Below are positions 31,590-34,309 of a DNA stretch of 64,000 bases, piece by piece. A model generated the notes under the pieces. It did not search any database and was not told the DNA's origin. It saw nothing but the letters and a program-made list of their open reading frames with translations. The stretch comes from Anaerofustis stercorihominis DSM 17244 (GTDB taxonomy: Bacteria; Bacillota; Clostridia; Eubacteriales; Anaerofustaceae): positions 459,052-523,051 of the forward strand of contig NZ_DS560015.1 in NCBI RefSeq assembly GCF_000154825.1, written 5' to 3'. Made by a program: the position numbers and the translations under genes. Position 1 is the stretch's first letter, and each line of letters opens with the position of its first letter.

Positions 31590-31751
31590 AAGGGGAGCTA
31601 CCCCTTTCACCCTTTATAAGGGACTCTGTCCCTTAAGAACCCTGCGAATATTTTTCCGAAGCAAAAAATATTCGATAAAATGCTTTCACTCAATCGCCGT
31701 GACGGCTCTTAACGCAGTCAAATTTTCTAAAAATCTCTGCCCGAGATTTTT
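31590..31751. repeat. Cluster of five consecutive hairpins (possible intergenic repeat)
   Basis: Within 160 bp lie AAGGGG/CCCCTT (31590-31606), AAGGGAC/GTCCCTT (31618-31634), CGAATATTTTT/AAAAATATTCG (31645-31674), GCCGT/ACGGC (31696-31706) and AAAAATCTC/GAGATTTTT (31729-31751). The local GC content is higher than in the neighbouring intergenic DNA. The style resembles dispersed structured repeats in some Clostridia, but no second copy occurs in this window. Confidence 0.55.
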
Positions 31752-32125
31752 GAAATGACCGCTACCCCTACCCTTTTATACAAAAATTATATCGTTTATT
31801 AAAATTAATAGCCTTTATTAGATAATATACATGTGAATGACTTAGTACGTTTAATATCCCTTTAATCAAAGCTTTTAAGCACCGCACCCAGCGGGGTCAA
31901 TTCCATTATGTGACTATTAAAATACTTCGAAGAAAGCTTACTAAAATTTACTAAAGTAAATTTTAAATGTGTTAAACTCAATTAATAACACGAGAAGATT
32001 TGCATCATCAATATTTTCGAGTCGAACAAGCAAAATATGGCATGTTGTAAGGTGGAAATCCTACAGAAGCTATTTAAGGGAAAAAGCCCCTTAATTGTTT
32101 GTTTCTTTAAAAAGAAAACTTATAG
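31752..32125. other. Intergenic DNA with further small hairpins, no gene
   Basis: About 370 bases between the hairpin cluster and the ABC-F promoter. They contain AAAATTTACT/AGTAAATTTT (31943-31964) and TTAAGGG/CCCTTAA (32074-32094) followed by a T-rich tract. I see no coding frame with a ribosome-binding site. An untranslated RNA is possible but unsupported. Confidence 0.4.
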
Positions 32126-32154
32126 TTGACAAAAAGTAGCAATAATGATATATT
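32126..32154 (+). promoter_or_regulatory. sigma-A promoter of the ABC-F leader
   Basis: TTGACA (32126-32131), 17 nt, TATATT (32149-32154). The start point would be near 32161, giving a leader of about 250 nt before the ABC-F ATG. Confidence 0.75.
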
Positions 32155-32188
32155 CACTTTAGAAATAAAAAAGATTGGAGATGAAAGG

Positions 32189-32209
32189 ATGTTTAATTTT
32201 TCTTGCTAG
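32189..32209 (+). CDS. Six-codon leader peptide MFNFSC
   Basis: The ATG at 32189-32191 has GGAG at 32177-32180, 8 nt upstream, and the frame ends at TAG 32207-32209. The Phe-Ser-Cys-stop codons lie inside the 5' arm (32198-32207) of the leader hairpin, so a ribosome paused here would open it. Short upstream frames of this kind control several ABC-F and erm genes through antibiotic-induced stalling. That this one is translated is inference. A competing ATG at 32181 (40 codons) abuts the GGAG and is less likely. Confidence 0.6.
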   Translation: MFNFSC

Positions 32210-32385
32210 TAAAAAAGAAAACATACAAAATAATTTTATTATTGATATCTTTATTTTCGTATGTAAAAAGCAAGAAAATCATATATTCTTTCAAATCTAT
32301 TAGTCGCATATAAAATATAGGTATGATATATTTATTAAATGCCTACCTGCTATTAGACCGCAAGAATCGATTTTCTTGCGGTTTT
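32198..32385 (+). promoter_or_regulatory. Ribosome-mediated transcription attenuator of the ABC-F gene
   Basis: Hairpin A: TTTTCTTGCT (32198-32207) pairs with AGCAAGAAAA (32269-32278), and inside it ACATAC-AAAATAA (32221-32233) pairs with TTATTTT-GTATGT (32251-32264, one bulge). Terminator: ACCGCAAGAA (32357-32366) pairs with TTCTTGCGGT (32373-32382), followed by TTT. Antiterminator: GCAAGAAAATC (32270-32280) is a perfect 11-nt complement of GATTTTCTTGC (32369-32379) in the terminator. Freeing the 3' arm of hairpin A would therefore prevent termination. Confidence 0.75.
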
Positions 32386-32408
32386 ATTGATTTAAAGGAG
32401 GTAAATAT

Positions 32409-33890
32409 ATGTCACTTATAAATATAAATAATCTAACTTTCGCTTATGAAGGCACTTATGAAAATATATTCGAAAATGTAAACTTAAATATAGATTCTTC
32501 ATGGAAATTAGGACTTATAGGAAGAAACGGAAGAGGAAAAACCACTCTCTTAAATCTGCTTTTAGGTAAGTATGAATATAAAGGAACAATAAACACAAAG
32601 GTAAATTTCGAATATTTTCCCTTTGAAATAAATGATTTAAATAAACTTACAATAGAAATAGTCGAAGATATAAACCCTAACTATGAATACTGGCAGATAG
32701 CAAAGGAACTTAATTTACTCAGCGTAGATGAAGAAGTTTTATACAGACCGTTTTATACTTTAAGTAATGGTGAGAGAATAAAGATAATGCTAGCTTCATT
32801 GTTTACAAAGGAAAACAGCTTTTTACTGATCGATGAACCCACAAACCACTTGGATATGGAAGCAAGAGAAAAGCTTACCGAATATCTAAATTCCAAAAGC
32901 GGTTTTATTCTCGTATCTCACGACAGAACACTCTTGGATAACTCTGTAGACCACATAATATCCATAAATAAAAATAAGATAGATTTACAAAAAGGAAACT
33001 TTTCTTCTTATTTTACAAATAAAGAAAGAGAAGATAAATTTGAACTTACACAAAACGAAAAACTAAAAAGTGAGATATCAGAGCTTACAGAGGCCTCAAA
33101 AAGAACAACGGGTTGGTCTAATGAAGTTGAAAAAACAAAATATAATAAAAGAAACTCGGGGCTTAGACCGGACAGAGGGTTTATCGGTCATAAATCCGCA
33201 AAGATGATGCAAAGAGCAAAAGCTATAGAAAAAAGGAGAAATGCTTCAATAGAAGAAAAATCAAAGCTTCTTAAAAATATAGAGAAACAAGAAGATTTAA
33301 AAATAGTGGGAAGTGAATATCATACAAAGCTTCTTTTAAGACTTAATCATTTAAATATATATTATGATGATAAAGAAGCGGTTCATGATGTTACTTTTAA
33401 TATAAATAAAGGCGACAGAGTTATCTTAAAAGGTAAAAACGGTTCCGGTAAATCAAGTATCCTAAAACTGATTTTAGGTAAGGATATAAAATACTCGGGA
33501 GACTTATATAAAGGAAGCAGCTTAAAAATATCTTACATTTCTCAGGATACATCTTTTTTAAAGGGCACTTTCAAAGACTTCTGTTTCGATAATGGGATTG
33601 ATGAAACGATTTTTAAGACAAATCTTAGGAAATTAGATTTTGAAAGGTCGGAATTTGAAAAGAATTTGGAAGATTTAAGCTCCGGACAGAAGAAAAAGAT
33701 CCTTATAGCAAAGAGTCTTACAGAGAGAGCAAATCTTTATATATGGGATGAACCGCTGAATTTCATAGATGTGTTTTCAAGGATTCAGATTGAAGAAGTT
33801 ATCTTAAAGTACAAACCTACCATGATCATAGTTGAACACGACAAGGCTTTTATTGATAAGGTCGGAAGTAAGGTGGTTGAACTGGATTAA
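32409..33890 (+). CDS. ABC-F ribosomal protection protein, Lsa-like
   Basis: The 493-aa protein has two ABC ATPase domains and no membrane segments. Walker A1 GRNGRGKTT (38-46), signature LSNGERIKI, Walker B1 LLIDEPTNHLD; Walker A2 GKNGSGKSS (about 342), signature LSSGQKKKI, Walker B2 LYIWDEPLNFIDVFS. The N-terminus (MSLININNLTFAYEGTYENI) and linker resemble the Lsa family, whose members dislodge lincosamides, streptogramin A and pleuromutilins from the ribosome. It has a strong AGGAGG site and sits directly behind the attenuator. Resistance is likely but untested. Confidence 0.9.
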   Translation: MSLININNLTFAYEGTYENIFENVNLNIDSSWKLGLIGRNGRGKTTLLNLLLGKYEYKGTINTKVNFEYFPFEINDLNKLTIEIVEDINPNYEYWQIAKELNLLSVDEEVLYRPFYTLSNGERIKIMLASLFTKENSFLLIDEPTNHLDMEAREKLTEYLNSKSGFILVSHDRTLLDNSVDHIISINKNKIDLQKGNFSSYFTNKEREDKFELTQNEKLKSEISELTEASKRTTGWSNEVEKTKYNKRNSGLRPDRGFIGHKSAKMMQRAKAIEKRRNASIEEKSKLLKNIEKQEDLKIVGSEYHTKLLLRLNHLNIYYDDKEAVHDVTFNINKGDRVILKGKNGSGKSSILKLILGKDIKYSGDLYKGSSLKISYISQDTSFLKGTFKDFCFDNGIDETIFKTNLRKLDFERSEFEKNLEDLSSGQKKKILIAKSLTERANLYIWDEPLNFIDVFSRIQIEEVILKYKPTMIIVEHDKAFIDKVGSKVVELD

Positions 33891-33918: not shown

Positions 33919-33947
33919 AAAAGCAGTAAGCATAGCTTACTGCTTTT
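33919..33947. terminator. Bidirectional terminator between ABC-F gene and ylbF
   Basis: A 13-bp stem AAAAGCAGTAAGC / GCTTACTGCTTTT with a 3-nt loop serves both convergent genes. Confidence 0.9.
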
Positions 33948-33949
33948 GA

Positions 33950-34309
33950 TTATTTACCTACCAATTCATTCAAGAACGCAAGCCCGGTATCACTTGCTTC
34001 CGCAACCGTCTTTTGGATATCTTCCATCAACCTTGCGAAATACATCTGAGCTTCCATGAATTCTTTGATATCGGTTATGTTCGAGATAGTGCTGTAAAGT
34101 ACATTGAATTCTTCCACTCTTTTTTCATCCGGCTGTTCGCCTTTCATCTGAGCAAGATAGAACTCATATTGAAAATCCATAAAATTCTTTATCATCTTTT
34201 TATGTTCTTCATTTTGGTCTACTTTTACGGCAGCATCCTTATACCTTTTGAATTCATCGCTTTCTTTGATTGCTTTTGCTAAATCATTAGCTTTGTCATA
34301 AACATTCAT
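33950..34309 (-). CDS. ylbF: YlbF/YmcA family regulator
   Basis: The 119-aa helical protein belongs to the Com_YlbF family (NVYDKANDLAKAIKESDEFKRY start; GLAFLNELVGK end). In Bacillus, YlbF with YmcA and YaaT forms a complex that directs RNase Y to mRNAs and affects competence and sporulation. Here it ends an operon that also encodes RNase J, which fits a role in RNA turnover. No YmcA or YaaT gene is in the window. Confidence 0.88.
   Translation of the reverse strand: MNVYDKANDLAKAIKESDEFKRYKDAAVKVDQNEEHKKMIKNFMDFQYEFYLAQMKGEQPDEKRVEEFNVLYSTISNITDIKEFMEAQMYFARLMEDIQKTVAEASDTGLAFLNELVGK

Follow-up and report, generated by a model that had tools for sequence, protein, structure and literature searches.

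The Lsa-like ABC-F gene of Anaerofustis stercorihominis DSM 17244 is very probably controlled by a ribosome-mediated transcription attenuator, in which a ribosome stalled by a drug on a short upstream open reading frame (uORF) would permit read-through into the gene. The leader that carries this switch is a member of a large, widespread and apparently undescribed family. An earlier note, made from the DNA letters alone, had proposed an attenuator at this position, and our analysis largely supports that interpretation with three corrections: the uORFs of relatives, some of only two codons and some with the start codon directly before the stop codon, indicate that the six-codon peptide is not needed and would place the stalling at or next to the start codon; the terminator still wins at equilibrium in our folding calculations, so the antiterminator would act by forming first; and the outer stem of the leader hairpin is predicted to also occlude the uORF's own ribosome-binding site.

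Components of the leader and the gene it precedes

The window that we analyzed is a 64,000-nt stretch of A. stercorihominis contig NZ_DS560015.1. The leader and its gene comprise the following features, given in positions of the window:

32126..32154, + strand: promoter, with TTGACA at 32126-32131, a 17-nt spacer, and TG plus TATATT at 32149-32154 (11/12 match)
near 32161, + strand: transcription start, as inferred from the promoter
32177..32180, + strand: Shine-Dalgarno (SD) sequence GGAG of the uORF, 8 nt before its ATG and also on the 5' side of outer stem P1
32189..32209, + strand: uORF ATG TTT AAT TTT TCT TGC TAG (MFNFSC), by direct reading; its position is the same in 89 leaders
32198..32207, + strand: region 1, TTTTCTTGCT, the 5' arm of the anti-antiterminator, within the uORF (folding, P2 covariation)
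32270..32280, + strand: region 2, GCAAGAAAATC, the partner of region 1 (off) or region 4 (on)
32284..32302, + strand: 3' side of outer stem P1, TATTCTTTCAAATCT, which covers the uORF ribosome-binding site
32355..32367, + strand: region 3, the 5' arm of the intrinsic terminator
32369..32384, + strand: region 4, the terminator loop GATT and 3' arm, followed by a T-rich tail
32369..32379, + strand: antiterminator partner of region 2, GATTTTCTTGC, within region 4
32394..32401, + strand: ribosome-binding site of the ABC-F gene, AAAGGAGG, outside the terminator stem
32409..33890, + strand: Lsa-like ABC-F ribosome-protection gene, 493 aa (family models, PDB match)

Direct reading of 31700-32700 recovered every part that the earlier note had named, namely the promoter, the MFNFSC uORF with its ribosome-binding site, the hairpin, the terminator (32355-32384 overall) and the Lsa-like ABC-F gene. 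Region 1 pairs with AGCAAGAAAA (32269-32278) in the leader hairpin, and reading and folding both bear out that this 5' arm lies within the coding part of the uORF. The outer stem of the same hairpin takes in the uORF SD, whose GGAG belongs to a strongly conserved block, GATTGGAG-TGAAAAGATG. Promoter-like sites just 5' of the uORF are enriched across 88 leaders, with a mean score of 9.6/12 compared to 7.9 in shuffles.

The protein encoded by the ABC-F gene finds its best family in the Lsa model NF000167, which it matches with 716.5 bits over its full length. Because this score lies just under the strict NCBIfam cut-off of 750 bits and that of the general ribosomal-protection ABC-F model NF000355 exceeds its cut-off (467.7 bits versus 380), we refer to the gene as Lsa-like. 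Its closest PDB match is Lsa(A) (7nhk), and no other gene in the A. stercorihominis genome comes near it in likeness. The record of A. stercorihominis DSM 28733 holds a 91% identical gene behind the same leader (L009). A 13-bp bidirectional terminator is located at 33919-33947, between the ABC-F gene and a convergent gene at 33950-34309.

Extent of the leader family and covariation of its pairings

The same sequence blocks are found 5' of Lsa genes in Sporomusa, Ruminiclostridium, Pelotomaculum, Oscillibacter and others: GATTGGAG-TGAAAAG-ATG, followed by TTTCTTGC or TTTCCTGC in the uORF and then by GCAAGAAA or GCAGGAAA, with TTTCTTGC repeated in the terminator 3' arm of the relatives' leaders. 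A covariance model, R1, matches the leader in 39 of 58 sources kept out of model building and, at E < 1e-4, in 26 of 398 genomes across Bacillota, nearly always before an Lsa-type gene. A second model, R2, was built from one Paenibacillus-like family only, with the A. stercorihominis leader and its relatives excluded; it detects the A. stercorihominis leader at E 4.8e-6 and has matches in 224 of 396 genomes of the Paenibacillus-like family, which are mostly genomes of 5-7 Mb. R2 also matches a Paenibacillus urinalis plasmid leader (L182, 4e-9) whose uORF reads ATG-TGA. No family in Rfam 15 reaches its gathering cut-off for the leader, with chance matches below the cut-off only, and no relative of the leader was found in the viral contigs searched. 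We left out one chance match (L130) and two opposite-strand images of true matches (L201 and L203), the hairpin being nearly self-complementary. Paenibacillus-like genomes (G934, G881, G940, G877 and others) hold up to four leader-model matches each, and at one locus (L029:1307-2000) an Lsa gene is preceded by three tandem, near-identical copies of the attenuator's terminator part.

Central to the switch is the 11-nt perfect complement between GCAAGAAAATC (32270-32280) and GATTTTCTTGC (32369-32379), which is present as the earlier note had reported. Taken alone it is weak evidence: an equal or longer distant complement (at least 60 nt) arose in 51 of 1000 dinucleotide shuffles, since long distant complements are to be expected now and then in a leader so rich in A+T. 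What establishes the complement is the comparison of leaders. An automated scan, which replaced a first automated search for regions 1, 2 and 4 that had mis-picked several terminators, finds the match to region 2 preserved in the terminator 3' arm of 83 of the 89 leaders, and homologous leaders have therefore not lost the complementarity. Regions 1, 2 and 4 also covary across leaders. Among 99 distinct sequences, the P2 stem formed by regions 1 and 2 is 97.6% paired, with 24 double-changed cells compared to 8 in shuffles, and at the fourth core position the three regions change together (T-A-T in 49 leaders, C-G-C in 19 and T-G-C in 9), a three-way state that is broken in only 2 of 83 leaders.

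Past the core, the pairing of region 2 extends into its own terminator loop, an example being GTTAC with GTAAC. This loop extension of the 2:4 pairing is favored over permuted partners (z 10 across all leaders and 7.5 in the 47 that remain after dereplication, with 0 of 10000 permutations reaching the observed value), as is outer stem P1 (z -5.6, dereplicated), with all z values being upper bounds because the leaders are related by descent and permutation statistics overstate their independence. The outer stem was assessed by own-versus-permuted pairing as RNAalifold recovered the 7-bp core only, a consequence of the outer stem shifting by one base between sequences. Judging from these patterns, the 1:2 and 2:4 pairings and the outer stem are all under selection.

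Thermodynamic folding gave a consistent picture. For the leader as a whole the folding energy is -63.4 kcal/mol (z -5.6), lower than in 200 of 200 shuffles, and in its free form p(1:2) is 0.98 and p(terminator) is 0.99. Once a ribosome occupies the start codon, p(2:4) climbs through 0.44, 0.71 and 0.90 to 1.00 as the 3' end of the transcript moves from 32374 to 32380, standing at 0.90-1.00 for 3' ends 32378 to 32380, and the terminator is at 0. From 3' end 32382 onwards the terminator is the better fold, and it beats the antiterminator at equilibrium once 32384 has emerged, so the model needs kinetics; as the terminator loop emerges before the 3' arm, the loop pairing of 2:4 would give the antiterminator a head start. 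Among the 47 dereplicated leaders, the free form folds into the terminator in 46 and the antiterminator in one, and the stalled form folds into the antiterminator in 43, with the antiterminator preceding the terminator in 41. Mean p(2:4) is 0.86 with the footprint on the start codon versus 0.05 and 0.11 when it is shifted, values that speak for consistency rather than proof given that masking region 1 frees region 2 by construction. Folding and covariation together describe a mutually exclusive anti-antiterminator, antiterminator and intrinsic terminator, as in ABC-F attenuators. The short uORF with an SD at the leader 5' end that also marks such attenuators can be read in A. stercorihominis and in all 89 leaders.

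We propose the following mechanism, in which drug class, actual stalling and actual antitermination are what we infer. When no drug is present, the uORF would be translated quickly, regions 1 and 2 would pair with the outer stem closing over the SD, and the 3:4 terminator would form and halt transcription before the ABC-F gene. A drug of the pleuromutilin, lincosamide or streptogramin A type would hold a ribosome at the uORF start codon, where its footprint, reaching to about +16, would cover region 1. Region 2 would then be free to capture the emerging terminator loop and 3' arm before the terminator hairpin closes, allowing RNA polymerase to read into the ABC-F gene, whose product would clear the drug from ribosomes.

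Predicted position of the stalled ribosome and the role of the uORF peptide

Irrespective of uORF length, the start codon precedes the pairing core by 11 nt in 82 of 89 leaders; the uORF has six codons in 64, seven in 12, two (MK, MR or VK) in nine and one in two. By the 30S toeprint (PMC9226507), the footprint of a ribosome that holds the start codon in its P site extends some 16 nt downstream, meaning that region 1 would be covered by a ribosome at the uORF start codon. In the Paenibacillus-like family the uORF is reduced further, with the start codon directly before a stop codon in 90 of the 98 leaders examined (ATG-TAA 50, ATG-TAG 26, ATG-TGA 9, GTG-TAG 5); of the other ATG or GTG triplets in the same leaders, 20 of 328 are followed by a stop. 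With each of the three stop codons and two different start codons in use, it is the start-stop pair itself that is kept. These forms fit drugs that halt ribosomes at the start codon, as retapamulin does (PMC13410324), and lincosamides and streptogramin A would be assigned because of the PLSA class of Lsa. Many start-stop leaders have an in-frame upstream TTG or ATG, and in most the SD stands 12-14 nt from the start codon, an unusually wide spacing. We considered a longer reading frame beginning at those codons and judge it unlikely, though not for every leader: where such a codon is found 12 nt upstream it usually abuts GGAG, leaving zero spacing, eight leaders are without any in-frame upstream start, and sister leaders with the same long spacing encode MDFSC from the same start codon.

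These forms bear directly on whether the peptide itself could be the sensor, through a sequence-specific elongation arrest that requires both the drug and a nascent MxxxSC peptide. Macrolides act in concert with the nascent peptide on the ermC and msrD leaders, and in our family most six-codon uORFs conserve Ser-Cys at the C terminus. In addition, codon 2 encodes Arg or Lys in 68 of 89 leaders by way of CGT, CGC, CGA, AGA, AGG, AAA and AAG, and is never a Ser or Asn codon of the AGY/AAY type in the 89, which looks like amino-acid selection at that position. We nonetheless consider peptide-directed arrest very unlikely, as the whole RNA switch is kept with the two-codon MK, MR and VK uORFs, as no peptide bond is made in the start-stop uORFs, which excludes nascent-peptide arrest there, and as TCTTGC, which encodes Ser-Cys, is kept out of frame or untranslated in these leaders, so that pairing explains it. 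Comparison of relatives thus indicates that the peptide is dispensable in them: the attenuator reading of the earlier note gains from the competing pairings and the covariation, and the six-codon peptide encoded by the short frame that it described is not needed. Residue 2, mostly Arg or Lys in the longer uORFs, may still tune the response.

The switch might instead mainly hide and expose the ribosome-binding site of the ABC-F gene. In cplR the SD of the gene is masked by the terminator, and the published account calls the regulation translational attenuation (PMC10201436); moreover, a further leader ORF adjoins the gene in lsa(E), lsa(B), a Priestia lsa and the Cfr genes. In A. stercorihominis, however, the gene SD at 32394-32401 lies outside the terminator and we saw no stable alternative structure that hides it, and the terminator has a T-rich tail and is targeted by the 2:4 pairing on its own arm and loop, making control at the level of translation a highly improbable main function. 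We regard as similarly doubtful, and only faintly probable, that the leader senses translation trouble in general or an amino acid such as cysteine rather than PLSA drugs. Region 2 would become free whatever the cause of a ribosome's halt on the uORF, and the sole Cys codon is the last codon, but the start-stop and MK forms lack a Cys codon and the downstream genes almost all confer PLSA resistance, being Lsa-type ABC-F genes and in some cases Cfr. Finally, hairpins and terminators are common in A+T-rich leaders and the 11-nt complement occurs in 5% of shuffles, but a plain terminator and hairpin that do not switch can be dismissed almost entirely given the covariation of regions 1, 2, 4 and the terminator loop, the fixed spacing of the start codon and the recurrence of the leader before the same genes across Bacillota.

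Genes behind the leader and comparison with known systems

The mobile lsa(E) gene is preceded by the same leader, with the uORF MYNFSC (R1 75 bits, E 3e-15). At least 80% of the lsa(E) leader and gene junction is held by 102 plasmid records, nearly all at 99% identity or more, with plasmids from Enterococcus, Staphylococcus, Listeria and others. In NZ_KT448817.1 (L181, 839-1200), lsa(E) has two tandem leader modules, first the MYNFSC attenuator and behind it another leader ORF (GTG ATA GAC AAT GAT ...) that resembles the leader ORF regions in front of lsa(B) (L184) and the Priestia lsa (L183). A chromosomal lsa (L112/L205; G358 contig 1, about 977800-979700) shares 96% protein identity with Lsa(E) and 93% DNA identity over 2 kb including the leader, and is absent from the two other genomes of its genus, placing it either near the origin of lsa(E) or among its recipients.

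At several Paenibacillus-like loci the leader precedes a Cfr-family rRNA methyltransferase gene; of three Cfr-like genes tested, two exceed the TIGR04432 cut-off and the third is incomplete in the stretch examined. One of these loci, L196, retains a C-terminal lsa remnant between leader and Cfr gene, which suggests that the switch passed from one resistance gene to another. Cfr-like genes stand behind the start-stop attenuator at L196, L235, L259, L282, L284, L298, L300, L304, L310 and L313, where another leader ORF, some 36 codons long, precedes the gene (L196: MFEVVNVHVNRSLSVGTVHDQTKRMPEHYPSIDRCT). Elsewhere, a leader with a 12-nt match between regions 2 and 4 precedes an ECF-type sigma factor gene rather than an ABC-F gene (L132:1501-2441), and a weaker leader of the same type, with the uORF MIITIC, precedes a gene with a SnoaL-like domain (L133:1501-3032).

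We moderately favor the view that the A. stercorihominis leader belongs to an undescribed and very widespread, peptide-free RNA sensor of drug-blocked peptidyl-transferase centres, whose sensor ORF in the Paenibacillus-like relatives is reduced to AUG-UAA, AUG-UAG, AUG-UGA or GUG-UAG. The ribosome would be read out solely by its footprint on a fixed downstream sequence, the terminator loop would serve the antiterminator as a toehold, and the one switch would drive two unrelated resistance mechanisms, ABC-F ribosome protection and Cfr rRNA methylation. With such natural start-stop uORFs, the minimum that an antibiotic sensor requires could be tested sharply, as they rule out nascent-peptide arrest and predict induction only by drugs that stop the first ribosome step, and they bear on why leaders of this kind use short, differing uORFs. 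The family would also provide a single explanation for inducible resistance before many Bacillota Lsa-type genes and before lsa(E), a clinically important mobile gene on about 100 plasmids. In practice, tests run without induction may underrate lsa(E) and some Cfr genes.

The logic of the switch is already known from vmlR, a proven leader (PMC9226507), and cplR (PMC10201436), which belong to the same resistance class and are induced via stalling on a short uORF. According to the literature that we searched, the leader family, its extent, the uORF doubling as a pairing arm, the loop toehold, the start-stop forms and the presence before lsa(E) and cfr-like genes are new, with an earlier mention in Dar et al. 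2016 (Term-seq) being possible; the search found no description of lsa(E) regulation. Mobile lsa(E) on plasmids of Enterococcus, Staphylococcus and Listeria has the very same leader as A. stercorihominis, but with its second leader ORF between terminator and gene. The lsa(A) leader of Enterococcus faecalis also regulates an Lsa gene of the same ABC-F subfamily; it differs in its uORF, MAGN, which the paper gives as a computed consensus and for which it reports no leader mechanism (PMC10201436).

The cplR leader of Clostridioides difficile likewise has a short uORF in a 5' hairpin, a terminator and a gene of the PLSA class, and its uORF, MR[I/M], shares the second-residue Arg of most leaders described here (PMC10201436); the uORF of VmlR2 is MK[L/Q] (PMC10201436). 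By contrast, the cplR uORF has three codons and the gene SD is hidden in the terminator stem, whereas in A. stercorihominis the SD (32394-32401) is downstream of the terminator (32355-32384). R1 matched none of four CplR-like loci, a weak comparison as these loci fall below the CplR cut-off.

A close parallel in mechanism is the vmlR leader of Bacillus subtilis, in which a very short uORF lies inside an anti-antiterminator hairpin, a drug-stalled ribosome frees an antiterminator that blocks an intrinsic terminator, induction is by drugs that stop initiating ribosomes, and an inner hairpin can sit at the antiterminator apex (PMC9226507); for the present leader we propose the same antitermination and the same type of inducing drug. 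VmlR belongs to another ABC-F subfamily than Lsa, and its uORF, MIN (or MDN, MDK, MRK), has three codons located in a bulge of SL-1 (PMC9226507), whereas the A. stercorihominis uORF has six codons, the second half of which is the paired arm. Compared with vmlR as published, the leader described here places a pairing arm in the uORF itself, copies that arm in the terminator 3' arm and matches region 2 to the terminator loop.
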